From NCBI RefSeq assembly GCF_025420585.1, contig NZ_JAOEGB010000023.1, positions 1 to 64,000 on the forward strand: a DNA stretch of 64,000 nucleotides, written 5' to 3'. The notes beneath the pieces were generated by a model that saw only the letters and a list, made by a program, of their open reading frames with translations, was not told the origin of the DNA and searched no databases. The position numbers and the translations under genes are program-made. The stretch is from Planotetraspora sp. A-T 1434. Its GTDB lineage: Bacteria; Actinomycetota; Actinomycetes; Streptosporangiales; Streptosporangiaceae. Shown here piece by piece: positions 3,346 to 7,993 of the stretch (within the stretch, counting starts at the first letter, position 1; each line of letters opens with the position of its first letter).

Positions 3346-4490
3346 CTACGGCAGCGAACAGGCACTGATCGCCACCAGCGCGCACCTACTGGCCACCGGT
3401 GTCGTTGCCGGCGGATGGGCGGAGCACCCCGGCCAACACCGCGTGAAACGCGGCCGGACCCCGGGTGCACTCTTTTGCCGCTGGCCGGGCCGTCGGGTCT
3501 CACCCGAGGGTCCGGCACCGCACAACGCGTTGGCCTCCGTCGACATCAATGTCTCGGCCATGGTCTTAACCATGGATCGCAACAGATCCGGATCCCTGAC
3601 ATAGGGGCCTTGGTCATTCCAGATCGTGAACATCCCACGGCTCTGGCCGGGAAGACGCGGATTGAGGACCCAGCGGCCCTTGCCCACAGTGGTGAAGAGG
3701 GTGGCCAGACCATCTGACTGCAATCGCTCTGCCCAGTCGCACAGCCGGCGGCGCAATTCGCGAAGGGAGGGATCAGCGCTGTCGATGCTGTCGCGGAAGG
3801 AAGCCGATCCTGGAGTCGGCTTGGCTTCCCGTTGAATCCTCGACGGCGAAACCGAGGCCGCCACAGCGCGCTCCGGCTCGACCAGTTGCGGGACGAGCAC
3901 CTGGCTCCCACGCACGTCGTAGGCCATCACCGTCACCAGATCGATATCCAGACGATCGTTGGTGACGGTCTGCAGATACCCGGCAAGCTCGATCAAGTCG
4001 GTCGGCGCGGCATCGAGGACCACGACACAGCGGGCATTCCCTTTCTCGAATTCGCCGGCCATGCCGTTGCGAAAGGTCTCGATGTCGAATGATCCATCAC
4101 CGATCTCGGCAGCCACCACGTCGGCGACAGTCGCGTGTCCGCGTGCGGCGACATAAGGCTGCATCAGCTCTTCGAATGCGGTCGCCGATAGCCGAAAATA
4201 CAGGACGTGTATCCGAGAACCTGCGCGAAGATGGTTCTCCGATCCGAATTAGCGGCGAGTTTCACCTCGATGACCGTTGGTCGCCCGCTATCGGCATCCA
4301 CGGCCACGAGATCGGCATAGCCGTTGCCGAGCTGCACCTCCCGACCCAGGATCACCAGTCTTGGCTGACCAGGAAGCGGCAACATCGCGGGAGTGAGTTC
4401 GATACTGCCGTGAAGCGCCTGCTCGTTCGCATACGGCTGCGCTGGAAGAGGTACCAGCCCATTCCCTTCGTCATGCCAGATGCCCGTCAC
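3346..4490 (-). pseudogene. PD-(D/E)XK nuclease-like gene split by a frameshift
   Basis: Two abutting minus-strand frames make one protein. The 5' part (4490-4164, 108 aa) has a nuclease-like core with GNGYADLVAVDADS followed by VIEVKLA, i.e. the D...ExK arrangement. It drifts into nonsense after QVLGY and stops in a TGATG overlap with the second frame. The second frame, read from about 4202, continues sensibly as LSATAFEELMQPYVAARG. This indicates a one-base indel near 4190-4205 rather than two real genes, although coupled reinitiation at 4164 is possible. The last 70 residues of the 272-aa second part are Arg/Pro-rich and look out of frame too. It lies 123 bp downstream of prfH on the same strand. 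Biological target unknown. Confidence 0.55.
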
Positions 4491-4613
4491 CGATGCTCCC
4501 TTGGCCGCTGACCGTCACTAATTACCGCACGCACCCGGATGGCGGCCATCGCGACAGACGCCGACCGCATGCGGCGGCTCTCAACAGCGCGTACTTTCTC
4601 GGGGTCGACTCGA

Positions 4614-5318
4614 TCAGCGCGATTCTCCTTCCGCGGTGCGCGTTGGTCGGGTGGCGTGCCGCCGTCGCTGGCGCGTCTGCTTCTGCGGGGCCAGGTCCTG
4701 CTTCGACATTTCCGGACGCTCGATACGGGTGGGGTCGCCGCGTACGAGCTCATCGTGGATGCGCCAGCGGGCGGTGGTGACGGCGCGCCCTGCCGCCTCC
4801 TCGCCGCGCTCGATGCGCTGTCGCAGCAGTTGCATGGCGATGCGGCGATTGAGGCTGAACTGCCGCTCGGCGTCGACCACGACGACGATCCCCGAGGGCC
4901 GGTGGGTCGCCCGTACCGCCGTGCTGGCCTTGTTTCGATGTTGACCGCCGGGGCCGCCGGTGCGGCAGGCGACGATGTCGACGTCTGCTTCCGCGAACGT
5001 CGTGCGCGGGGTATCGACCTGGCACGGTTGGGCGGTGACGTACCAGTTCTTCCGGCCGGTGCAGGCCCGGTAGGGGCTGGGGGCCTGCCAACATAGAGTT
5101 CCGGTCCACGAGGCGGCGAACGCCTCGGCGCCGGTTCCTGCGATCTGGATGAGGACCGATCGGTAGGTGCCGGGCCGGTCACCTGGAACGGTTTGGGCTC
5201 GATGGGTCTTGAGATTCTGCCGGGTGGCGTCGGCTTCCAGGCGGCGCAGCAGCCGGGCCAGCGCCCAGGCACACTCCTGCGGGCCACGCCCGGCGGATAG
5301 GAGCAGGTGGACGCTCAC
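4614..5318 (-). CDS. prfH: Peptide chain release factor homologue PrfH
   Basis: Encodes 234 aa, close to the PrfH family (about 200 aa) and much shorter than RF1/RF2. The catalytic loop is present as GGPGGQHRNKASTAVRATH, with the peptidyl-tRNA hydrolysis GGQ at residues 124-126. The N-terminal codon-recognition domain of RF1/RF2 is replaced by a shorter domain. Published work on RtcB2-PrfH pairs shows PrfH releases peptides on ribosomes cleaved in the 16S decoding centre so that RtcB2 can reseal the rRNA. The start is GTG 5318, overlapping the rtcB stop as GTGA, so translation is coupled. The C-terminus has an Arg/Lys-rich tail (KQTRQRRR). Confidence 0.9.
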   Translation of the reverse strand: MSVHLLLSAGRGPQECAWALARLLRRLEADATRQNLKTHRAQTVPGDRPGTYRSVLIQIAGTGAEAFAASWTGTLCWQAPSPYRACTGRKNWYVTAQPCQVDTPRTTFAEADVDIVACRTGGPGGQHRNKASTAVRATHRPSGIVVVVDAERQFSLNRRIAMQLLRQRIERGEEAAGRAVTTARWRIHDELVRGDPTRIERPEMSKQDLAPQKQTRQRRRHATRPTRTAEGESR

Positions 5319-6103
5319 GGCCGGCCTCGCTTGCGGCGGTGATCCCGGTGGTCCCGGTGGTCCATTTGGGGCGTGGACCCGAGGTCGGGCGTCTTGTAGG
5401 TGACCAGAGGGACCGTGGTGTCGACGAGCGGCTCGGTGGGCTCGGTCCCCAGGGCATGGGCGACCCGGGCGGCCATCAGCCGCCGGTTGAGTGATCCCCA
5501 GCGTACGGCGTCGTCATGCAGCGCCAGGTAGGCGCCGGGATCAGGGGCCGGGCCCGCGCCGTGAACCTCGGTGTGCGCCCGCAGGATCCGTTCGCCCAGC
5601 CCTCGGGAACCGCTGTGGACGATGAGAACCAGGTCGCCGGCGGCGAGTCCGAGACGGCTCGCGTGGCCCGGCTCGAAGACGGTCCCGATCCGCGCCAGCT
5701 CGACGAAGTGGTTGCCCCGGCCGACCGTCCCGAGGCCCTCGAGGTGACCGGCGGGAATATCGCCCTTCACAACGGCCCAGGCCGGGTCGTCGGCATCCTG
5801 CTCAGGGTCCAGCGCGCGATCGAGGTCGGGGAACCGCGCGGCAAGCTTCTCGGGTACGGCCCGCTTGAGCTTGAGGGGTAACACGGCGATGCCGCACCCG
5901 ATGTCGGAGCCCACCAGGAACGGGTACAACACGGCCGACGCCATGGCGGCCCCGATGGGGGCGCCCTTGCCGGGGCGCAGGTCCGGCATGCCGGCAACAT
6001 GGATCATGCCGTCGAGGGCGGCCACCTGGTGGCACTGAGCGAGGGCATCGGACTCGATCCAGCTTGTGGGGGAGGCGAACACGGTGACGGTGGCCGAACC
6101 CAT
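5315..6103 (-). CDS. rtcB: RNA ligase RtcB (RtcB2 type), C-terminally truncated
   Basis: From ATG 6103 the protein is 262 aa, versus about 380-400 for intact RtcB. Recognisable in order: GMPDLRPGKGAPIG (His of the usual DLHPGKG replaced by Arg), GSDIGCGIAVL with the Mn-binding Cys, GRGNHFVEL with a metal His, and HSGSRGLG. After LVDTT the sequence diverges into a 30-residue tail with MDHRDHRDHRRKRGRP. The C-terminal third with the guanylylated His is missing, and neither other frame restores it, so this is a deletion rather than a simple frameshift. The tail arises from 9-bp repeats (GGTGGTCCC) at about 5340-5363. A TTG at 6154 would add 17 residues. Ligation activity is not expected. Confidence 0.85.
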   Translation of the reverse strand: MGSATVTVFASPTSWIESDALAQCHQVAALDGMIHVAGMPDLRPGKGAPIGAAMASAVLYPFLVGSDIGCGIAVLPLKLKRAVPEKLAARFPDLDRALDPEQDADDPAWAVVKGDIPAGHLEGLGTVGRGNHFVELARIGTVFEPGHASRLGLAAGDLVLIVHSGSRGLGERILRAHTEVHGAGPAPDPGAYLALHDDAVRWGSLNRRLMAARVAHALGTEPTEPLVDTTVPLVTYKTPDLGSTPQMDHRDHRDHRRKRGRP

Positions 6104-6440
6104 GGCCGGGGTGGACGGCAGCAGGGACTCCTGCCGAGAGTGTTGCTGAGACAAAACGCTCTTTTCGCTGAACAGGGGTATGGGGCGACGGCATTACGGC
6201 GCGAGTCGGCGCAGTGGCATCTCGGAGTAGCGGGGTGCGGTCCGTCAGAGCATCATGGACACCACGTTCCCTGAGCCCGCCACGCGAGGCAAGCGGTTTT
6301 CGGCCGTACGGACCTGTACGCCTGCACGCACCCCATCTAACGACCTGCGCGTGTGCTGCGGTCGACACGCGGAGACCACGCCGGATGCGTGCACTCTCAT
6401 GCCGCTGTGCGCGCTCGTGCCGACTTGAGTGCGGCGTTGC

Positions 6441-7658
6441 TCAAGCGCGGAGGGCGGCGCGGGAGTGGAGGAAGCGGCGCTCGGTGGCGTTGCCGGTGAG
6501 CACGGCGGCGCGCTCGTAGGCCGCAGCGGCGTCGTCGGCACGGCCGAGGCGGCCGAGCAGGTCGCCGCGTACCGCGTGGAGCACGTGATGGCGGTCGAGG
6601 CCATCGAGGGCGTCCACGAGCGGCAAGGCGGCTGCCGGGCCGTACACCTCGGCCAGTGCGACCGCGCGGTGCAGCGCGACGACCGGAGTTGGTATCAGGG
6701 CGGCCAGGTGGTCGTACAGGGCAAGGATTTGTCGCCAGTCGGTGTCGGCGGCCGTGGCGGCGTCGCTGTGCACGGCGTTGATGCCCGCTTGCAGTTGGTA
6801 GGGGCCGGGCTGGTCGCGGCGCAGACACTGCCTGAGCAGATCCTGACCCTCTGTGATCAGGGTGTGGTCCCAGAGCGTGCGGTCCTGGTCGGCGAGGCGC
6901 ACGAGGCCGCCGCCGGGGTCGGTGCGCGCCGGCCGTCGCGACTCGATCAGCAACATCAGCGCGAGCAGGCCGAGCACCTCTGGCTCGTCGGGCATCAGTG
7001 CCGCGAGCAGGCGGCCGAGCCGTACGGCCTCAGCGCTCAGGTCGTCGCGGGCGAGGCTCTCACCTGAGCTCGCGGTGTAGCCCTCGTTGAAGATGAGGTA
7101 GACGACGGCGAGGACCGCGCGGAGGCGGTCGGGAAGGTCGGCGTCGCGGGGCAGGCGGTACGGGATGCCGGCGTCACGGATCTTGCCCTTGGCGCGGACG
7201 AGCCGCTGGGCCATGGTCGGCTCAGGCACGAGGAACGCGCGCGCGATCTCGGCGGTGGTCAGCCCGCCAAGCAGCCGGAGCGTGAGCGCGACGCGGGTGG
7301 CGGGCGCGAGCGCGGGGTGGCAGCAGGTGAAGATCAGGCGGAGCCGGTCGTCGCGCACGGGACCTTCCTGTCCAGGGTCGGGTGCATCGTCGGACGCCCG
7401 CAGCAACAGCGCCTCGGCGTGCCGGTCGGCCCGCGTCGACTCGCGGCGCAGGCGGTCGATCGCCCGGTTACGGGCGGTCGTGATGATCCAACCGGCCGGG
7501 CTGGGCGGCACCCCGTCGACCGGCCAGCGCTGCACGGCCGTGGCGAACGCGTCCTGTACCGCGTCTTCGGCGACGTCGATGTCGCCGAAGACGCGGACCA
7601 GGACCGCGACAGCGCGGCCGTACTCCTTGCGGAAGATCCGCTCGATGTCGCCGCTCAT
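6441..7658 (-). CDS. ECF42-type RNA polymerase sigma factor (DUF6596)
   Basis: Encodes 405 aa from ATG 7658. Region 2 lies at about residues 10-80 ([16 protein letters not shown], then [17 protein letters not shown]). Region 4 contains [32 protein letters not shown], followed by [14 protein letters not shown], the hallmark start of the long DUF6596/TPR-like C-terminal extension of ECF42. These sigma factors have no classical anti-sigma factor and pair with YCII/DGPF proteins. The start overlaps the upstream YCII gene by 4 nt (ATGA), forming that pair here. Target promoters cannot be named from this window. Confidence 0.92.
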
Positions 7659-7993
7659 GCGACGGGCCGCACCTCGACCGGCAGCGTGGAGGCGCGGGCC
7701 ATCCTGGCGCCCCACGCCAAGGCGGCGTCAAGGTCCGGCGCGTTGATGATCGTGAAGCCGCCGAGGTGCTCTTTGCCCTCGGTGAACGGGCCGTCGGTGA
7801 GCAGCGCTTCGCCGTCGCGGTCACGGACGACCGTCGCGGTGCCGGCCGGGTGGAGGCCGACGGAGAAGACCCAGGCGCCGGCGGCCCGCATCTCCTCGGC
7901 CAGGGCGCCGAGGTCGGCCATGATCGGGGCGAGGACCTCTGGCGACGGCGGGTCGCCGTCGGGCTGGTAGACGCTGAGCAGGTACTGCCTCAT
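7655..7993 (-). CDS. YCII (DGPF)-domain protein
   Basis: A 112-aa ferredoxin-like-fold protein with the family signature [20 protein letters not shown] (DGPF and the GGF turn) and [19 protein letters not shown] upstream. YCII/DGPF genes sit next to ECF42 sigma factors in many actinobacteria and are thought to act with them in signalling. Biochemical function is not established. Start ATG 7993 is chosen because the longer open frame upstream is Arg-rich antisense sequence. Stop and sigma start overlap as ATGA. It lies 14 nt downstream of the DHFR-like gene, so the three genes are probably cotranscribed. Confidence 0.88.

Follow-up and report, generated by a model that had tools for sequence, protein, structure and literature searches.

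An rtcB2-prfH rRNA-repair operon of Planotetraspora, probably in decay after an internal in-frame deletion in rtcB2

The rtcB2-prfH operon was described in 2006 by Baranov et al., together with its likely translational coupling and its disrupted copies (PMC1586002), and its spread by horizontal transfer was inferred in 2019 (PMC6514570). The 2006 account reports that E. coli K-12 has lost about 1,000 nt across both genes of the operon, and weighs unsuccessful horizontal transfer against lineage-specific loss. According to a 2022 study, E. coli is protected from colicin E3 by plasmid-borne rtcB2, alone or together with prfH, but not by prfH alone; deletion of either gene raises sensitivity, although the 16S cleavage signal was low in such single-gene deletants; and RtcB2 is not replaced by the housekeeping RtcB. 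The operon of strain BW25113 is truncated and non-functional (PMC9223846). Here we compare with these systems a locus from Planotetraspora sp. A-T 1434, contained in a 64,000-nucleotide stretch of contig NZ_JAOEGB010000023.1 (the window), in which rtcB2 carries an internal in-frame deletion (5315..6154, minus strand) and is followed by an intact prfH, the gene for peptide chain release factor H (4614..5318, minus strand).

Like the operon of E. coli ATCC25922 (PMC9223846), the window has members of the same two gene families next to each other, with prfH intact. The E. coli operon is itself intact and protects from colicin E3, whereas the window's rtcB2 has lost 123 amino acids, including the catalytic histidine. 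In this respect the locus resembles the degenerate operons of E. coli K-12 and BW25113, where an internal deletion is also taken to abolish function and relatives are intact (PMC1586002, PMC9223846), but in the window only rtcB2 is affected, the deletion is in frame, and prfH is whole. Intact pairs occur in Planotetraspora, Nonomuraea, Streptosporangium and Microbispora (e.g. L059-L061, L063, L064, L068 and L070), with a C-terminus of RtcB2 similar to that of the window and a full-length rtcB2. We consider it very likely that the window holds an rtcB2-prfH rRNA-repair operon in decay, brought about by a recent loss-of-function deletion in rtcB2.

Alignment of the DNA with that of relatives showed that one internal stretch of 369 bp, corresponding to 123 amino acids, is absent from the window's rtcB2. 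The gap had the same size against all ten relatives compared, with 88–93% identity on both flanks and through rtcB2 and prfH. BLAST comparison with the two nearest relatives, which also belong to the set of ten under other locus identifiers, gave two long collinear matches each, with 369 bp between them in the relative only. The junction, EPLVD/TTVPLVT, lies between 5420 and 5419 (5419..5430, minus strand). A protein alignment of 81 sequences, comprising the window and the top 80 named loci among 245 relatives retrieved through rtcB2 (the rtcB2-anchored set), reads EPLVD directly followed by TTVPLVTYKTPD at this point, so that residue 245 of the window abuts the equivalent of residue 369 of L061 (Planotetraspora silvatica). 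The deletion, its size, the content that it removed and the intact state of the relatives are direct observations. Bases 5420-5430 of the window match the bases at both gap edges in relatives (in L005 the two edges agree with each other at 8 of 11 positions), and this imperfect match would fit a deletion by slippage or illegitimate joining. No published description of the 369-bp deletion was found in the literature searched.

The lost 123 residues hold 97 columns conserved at ≥95%. Among them is the HGAGR motif, whose histidine aligns with His404 of Pyrococcus RtcB, which we take to be the guanylylated residue; the CHN motif, presumably part of the RtcB metal site, is also in the lost stretch. 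An earlier note on this DNA described RtcB as truncated before its catalytic histidine. The alignment with intact RtcB2 that it proposed as a check bears this out as far as the absence of the guanylylated-histidine region is concerned; the gene is, however, not truncated at its 3' end, and the native C-terminus follows residue 245. The 30-residue tail DHRDHRDHRRKR, which the same note took for a replacement of the C-terminus, is the family's own arginine- and histidine-rich C-terminal end (TTVPLVTYKTPDLGSTP...DHRDHRRKRGRP; 5318..5419, minus strand), homologous to that of intact relatives. Recognisably similar ends were seen in six of the seven relatives inspected, for example L059 (...QRDHRNHRRKRGRP) and L061 (...RRDHRDDRDHRRRQGRP), the exception being the shorter end of L136. 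A new C-terminal domain is ruled out, the tail being native. We also rejected a split gene with the lost piece encoded elsewhere, since a search of the genome for the lost stretch found it only inside a second, full-length RtcB on another contig (C46), at 40% identity. An intein or intron missing here and present in relatives was likewise ruled out, because most of what the relatives have in addition belongs to the RtcB core and is homologous to Pyrococcus RtcB from its residue 372 onward.

The N-terminal part that the earlier note regarded as kept does have the GSDIGCG, GRGNHF and HSGSRG motifs, but it has not come through unchanged. Two substitutions, H60R and F92L, are its only departures from columns conserved at ≥95%, and both columns are invariant in all 80 relatives. 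Codon 60 (5975..5977, minus strand) encodes arginine where the 80 relatives have the histidine of the MPDLH motif (MPDxH), aligned with His67 of Pyrococcus RtcB. Fold prediction gave a mean pLDDT (predicted local distance difference test) of 39.7 for the stub and 43.6 for the intact protein, the intact control thus being of low confidence too. These substitutions also bear on whether the deletion is an artefact of assembly or sequencing and the real rtcB2 is full-length. The genome is a draft of 136 contigs, and the gene after prfH also looks frameshifted, with no homologue to confirm it, which may reflect either error or decay. We nevertheless regard an artefact as very unlikely: H60R and F92L are changes separate from the deletion, the flanking sequence is otherwise open and gives clean alignments, and the 11-base match at the gap edges is imperfect and would be short for the collapse of a repeat.

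Family assignments agree with a gene of clear descent that is broken. The window's rtcB2 scored 98 bits against the RtcB family PF01139, and its best-matching family was NF007153, the RtcB of the PrfH operon. Against that profile it reached 260.9 bits, below the cut-off of 407, aligning over positions 9-244 of 379; against TIGR03073 it reached 180.3 bits, below the cut-off of 271.8, over positions 1-232 of 356. From these profiles and the alignment it is clear that the gene descends from the PrfH-operon RtcB2 family, of which it is a broken member. PrfH, by contrast with its neighbour, scored above the curated cut-off of TIGR03072 (190.2 vs 166.65 bits), keeps the GGQ motif (GGPGGQH), and is encoded at full length, 234 codons, in a single open frame, as the earlier note had supposed. 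That note was also right about the coupling of the genes: the end of rtcB2 (stop codon at 5315-5317) and the start of prfH share the four bases GTGA, as in L061. Measured as an RtcB2-PrfH operon with both genes full-length, the locus (L048 in our numbering) thus keeps the gene overlap and falls short in rtcB2. At the 5' end, position 6103, given earlier as the beginning of rtcB2, is an internal ATG. DNA similarity upstream reaches 6300-6336 in nine of the ten loci compared, and only 6116 in L097 (Microtetraspora sp. NBRC 13810); because it extends past 6103, the TTG at 6154 may be the start, which gives 279 codons as compared with 402 in L061.

To quantify selection on the two genes, we calculated the ratio of nonsynonymous to synonymous substitution rates (dN/dS) for the window and 63 loci of the rtcB2-anchored set, restricted to rtcB2 residues 20-245, prfH residues 1-200 and alignment columns occupied in >90% of sequences; the other 17 of the 80 loci were excluded for a broken or absent gene, as the two loci with a changed GGQ motif (GGR, described below), or as L115. 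The retained part of rtcB2 had a mean dN/dS of 0.250 against its eight nearest sequences (rank 13 of 64, median 0.209), and prfH a mean of 0.246 (rank 57 of 64, median 0.317). The window's rtcB2 had two private changes at otherwise invariant columns, the joint highest number among the 64 sequences (three of them have two), and its prfH had none. These values give at most a hint of relaxed selection on the retained part of rtcB2, while prfH looks constrained, with no sign of decay. With prfH and most of rtcB2 seemingly still under constraint, the deletion is probably recent. The same data can be turned to another account, in which the shortened RtcB2 is functional and represents a novel type of protein, such as a non-catalytic binder of PrfH or of the cut ribosome. 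Its open frame, its only mildly raised dN/dS and its three retained RtcB motifs would be compatible with this, but what might have been a new C-terminal domain is the native C-terminus, the gap has removed much of the conserved core, the invariant histidine is changed as well, and no second instance of this deletion was seen in the loci examined. We consider such a protein extremely improbable.

Two overlapping sets of loci, with several genomes in common, were surveyed for the state of the operon. In the rtcB2-anchored set, rtcB2 was called full when it matched L061 to residue 370, with HRKG and no stop; in a second, PrfH-anchored set it also had to start by residue 45. A full prfH matched from residue ≤6 to ≥180, with no stop before 195, and a changed GGQ was not counted as broken in the former set and was tallied apart in the latter. 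Comparison of rtcB lengths, another check suggested earlier, gave 376-406 amino acids in 79 of the 80 loci, measured from the position of the window's start, and the window's deletion in none. Both genes were full-length in 66 of these loci, two of which have GGR for GGQ in PrfH; prfH was broken in five and was not found in eight (among them L091, where the contig ends and no judgement is possible), and rtcB2 was frameshifted in one. The PrfH-anchored set came from a search of 297 genomes of the order, in 44 of which, the window's own included, PrfH exceeded the cut-off, with one further genome from a class-wide search and L154, which lies below the cut-off. The class-wide search (E ≤ 1e-40) found four of 394 genomes: the window's own, two already in the set, and one new, G484, outside the family. 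Among the 46 PrfH-anchored loci, both genes were full in 42 and full with GGR in two, prfH was broken in one (L154), and rtcB2 was broken in one, the window. Neither the 80 loci of the rtcB2-anchored set nor the other 45 of the PrfH-anchored set contained a second case of the deletion, and on this survey we rejected a shared, recurrent short form of rtcB2.

Damage to the rtcB2-prfH operon is common among the relatives. In L106, L128 and L131 a large internal stretch of prfH is missing, with both ends of the gene recognisable and rtcB2 full-length; judged by tblastn frames, the gap stays in frame in L131 alone. Seven loci (L097, L090, L105, L113, L118, L119 and L136) have a full-length rtcB2 and no prfH that could be found by tblastn (E ≤ 1e-3) within the 3.4–4.0 kb downstream, the opposite of what the window shows. 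In Nonomuraea antri and N. candida (L100 and L130), PrfH is full-length and adjoins a full-length rtcB2, but its catalytic GGQ has become GGR (GGPGGRHRDK), and it would presumably be unable to release peptides; L153 and L152, on contigs of the same lengths as these two, show the same change. In Micromonospora sp. BL4 (L115), the full rtcB2 is immediately preceded by a second, partial copy in two pieces (61% and 52% identity). The state nearest to that of the window is in Micromonospora tarensis (L108), where a frameshifted rtcB2 stands beside a full prfH, although the frameshift may be a sequencing error.

The survey allows us to consider whether PrfH could have become independent of RtcB2, releasing peptides from cut ribosomes whose rRNA stays unsealed or is resealed by the housekeeping RtcB, with the short RtcB2 as a translated leader for coupling. 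Such independence would accord with a PrfH that passes its family cut-off, keeps GGQ and looks constrained, with the preserved GTGA coupling, with the full-length second RtcB on C46, with the similar arrangement in M. tarensis, and with the low 16S cleavage signal of E. coli lacking rtcB2 only. Yet a full-length rtcB2 adjoins prfH in all 44 other cases of PrfH over the cut-off, and a broken one in none. Loss in the rtcB2-anchored set runs mostly the other way, with prfH lost or broken and rtcB2 kept in 13 of 80 loci (L091 undecidable) and the reverse in one of 80, although a set found through rtcB2 is biased toward loss of prfH. The E. coli results cited above, in which prfH alone is unprotective, strains without rtcB2 are more sensitive and the housekeeping RtcB is no substitute, also speak against it, and if the deletion is recent, prfH would be expected to show constraint whichever account holds. 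We therefore think it very unlikely that PrfH is independent of RtcB2, and equally so that, as the earlier note proposed, PrfH of this lineage works on cut ribosomes with no ligase dedicated to it while the short RtcB2 is kept as a translated leader or non-catalytic partner. Beyond the wholeness of prfH, that proposal gained no positive support, given the 44 unbroken rtcB2 neighbours, a tail that is no new domain, and the failure of E. coli prfH alone to protect (PMC9223846).

The other possibility raised in that note, a dying pair, fares better: the catalytic core is deleted, an invariant histidine is changed, the deletion is unique in both locus sets, and other operons in relatives are damaged. 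In the operon decay that we favour, a single 369-bp deletion removed the catalytic core of RtcB2 with its guanylylated histidine; because it fell in frame, neither the native C-terminus nor the GTGA coupling to prfH was affected. The shortened RtcB2 would have no ligase activity and would probably be misfolded, and prfH may still be translated by coupling. PrfH would then be without its dedicated ligase partner, and for that reason the cell would have lost its protection against toxins that cleave 16S rRNA in the decoding centre. Several points weigh against this. The rtcB2 frame is kept, which has one chance in three for a random deletion. The dN/dS of rtcB2 is only mildly above the median and prfH is constrained, so nothing points to a long period of neutral drift, and two private changes at otherwise invariant columns also occur in two more of the 64 sequences. 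Finally, because the E. coli strain lacking rtcB2 alone gave a low 16S cleavage signal (PMC9223846), PrfH without RtcB2 may not be wholly idle.

Beyond the two genes, similarity to the ten compared loci covers rtcB2-prfH and about 180 bp upstream (approximately 4619..6330, minus strand). Judged within 4001-7800 of the window, it ends near these limits in nine of the ten, and L066 has one further weak match, of 500 bp at 73%, at 7352-6864. Similarity is thus confined largely to this segment, as for a mobile cassette. On the same strand at 3346-4490, the gene after prfH seems to be split near 4200 by a frameshift into open reading frames of 108 and 272 amino acids. Neither had a Pfam match at E 0.1, and we found no homologue that bridges the split; a 50-residue part of this gene has five matches in a relative (G004), of which four stand at the start of a contig.

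As a case of decay, the locus matters little, adding one more lineage that is losing a patchily distributed counter-toxin operon; prfH is probably next to decay, or lingers because it is harmless. The window does, however, provide a natural genotype with a whole prfH and no working rtcB2, whereas the relatives examined more often show the opposite loss, and for this reason would offer a ready test of whether PrfH is of any use without its ligase.
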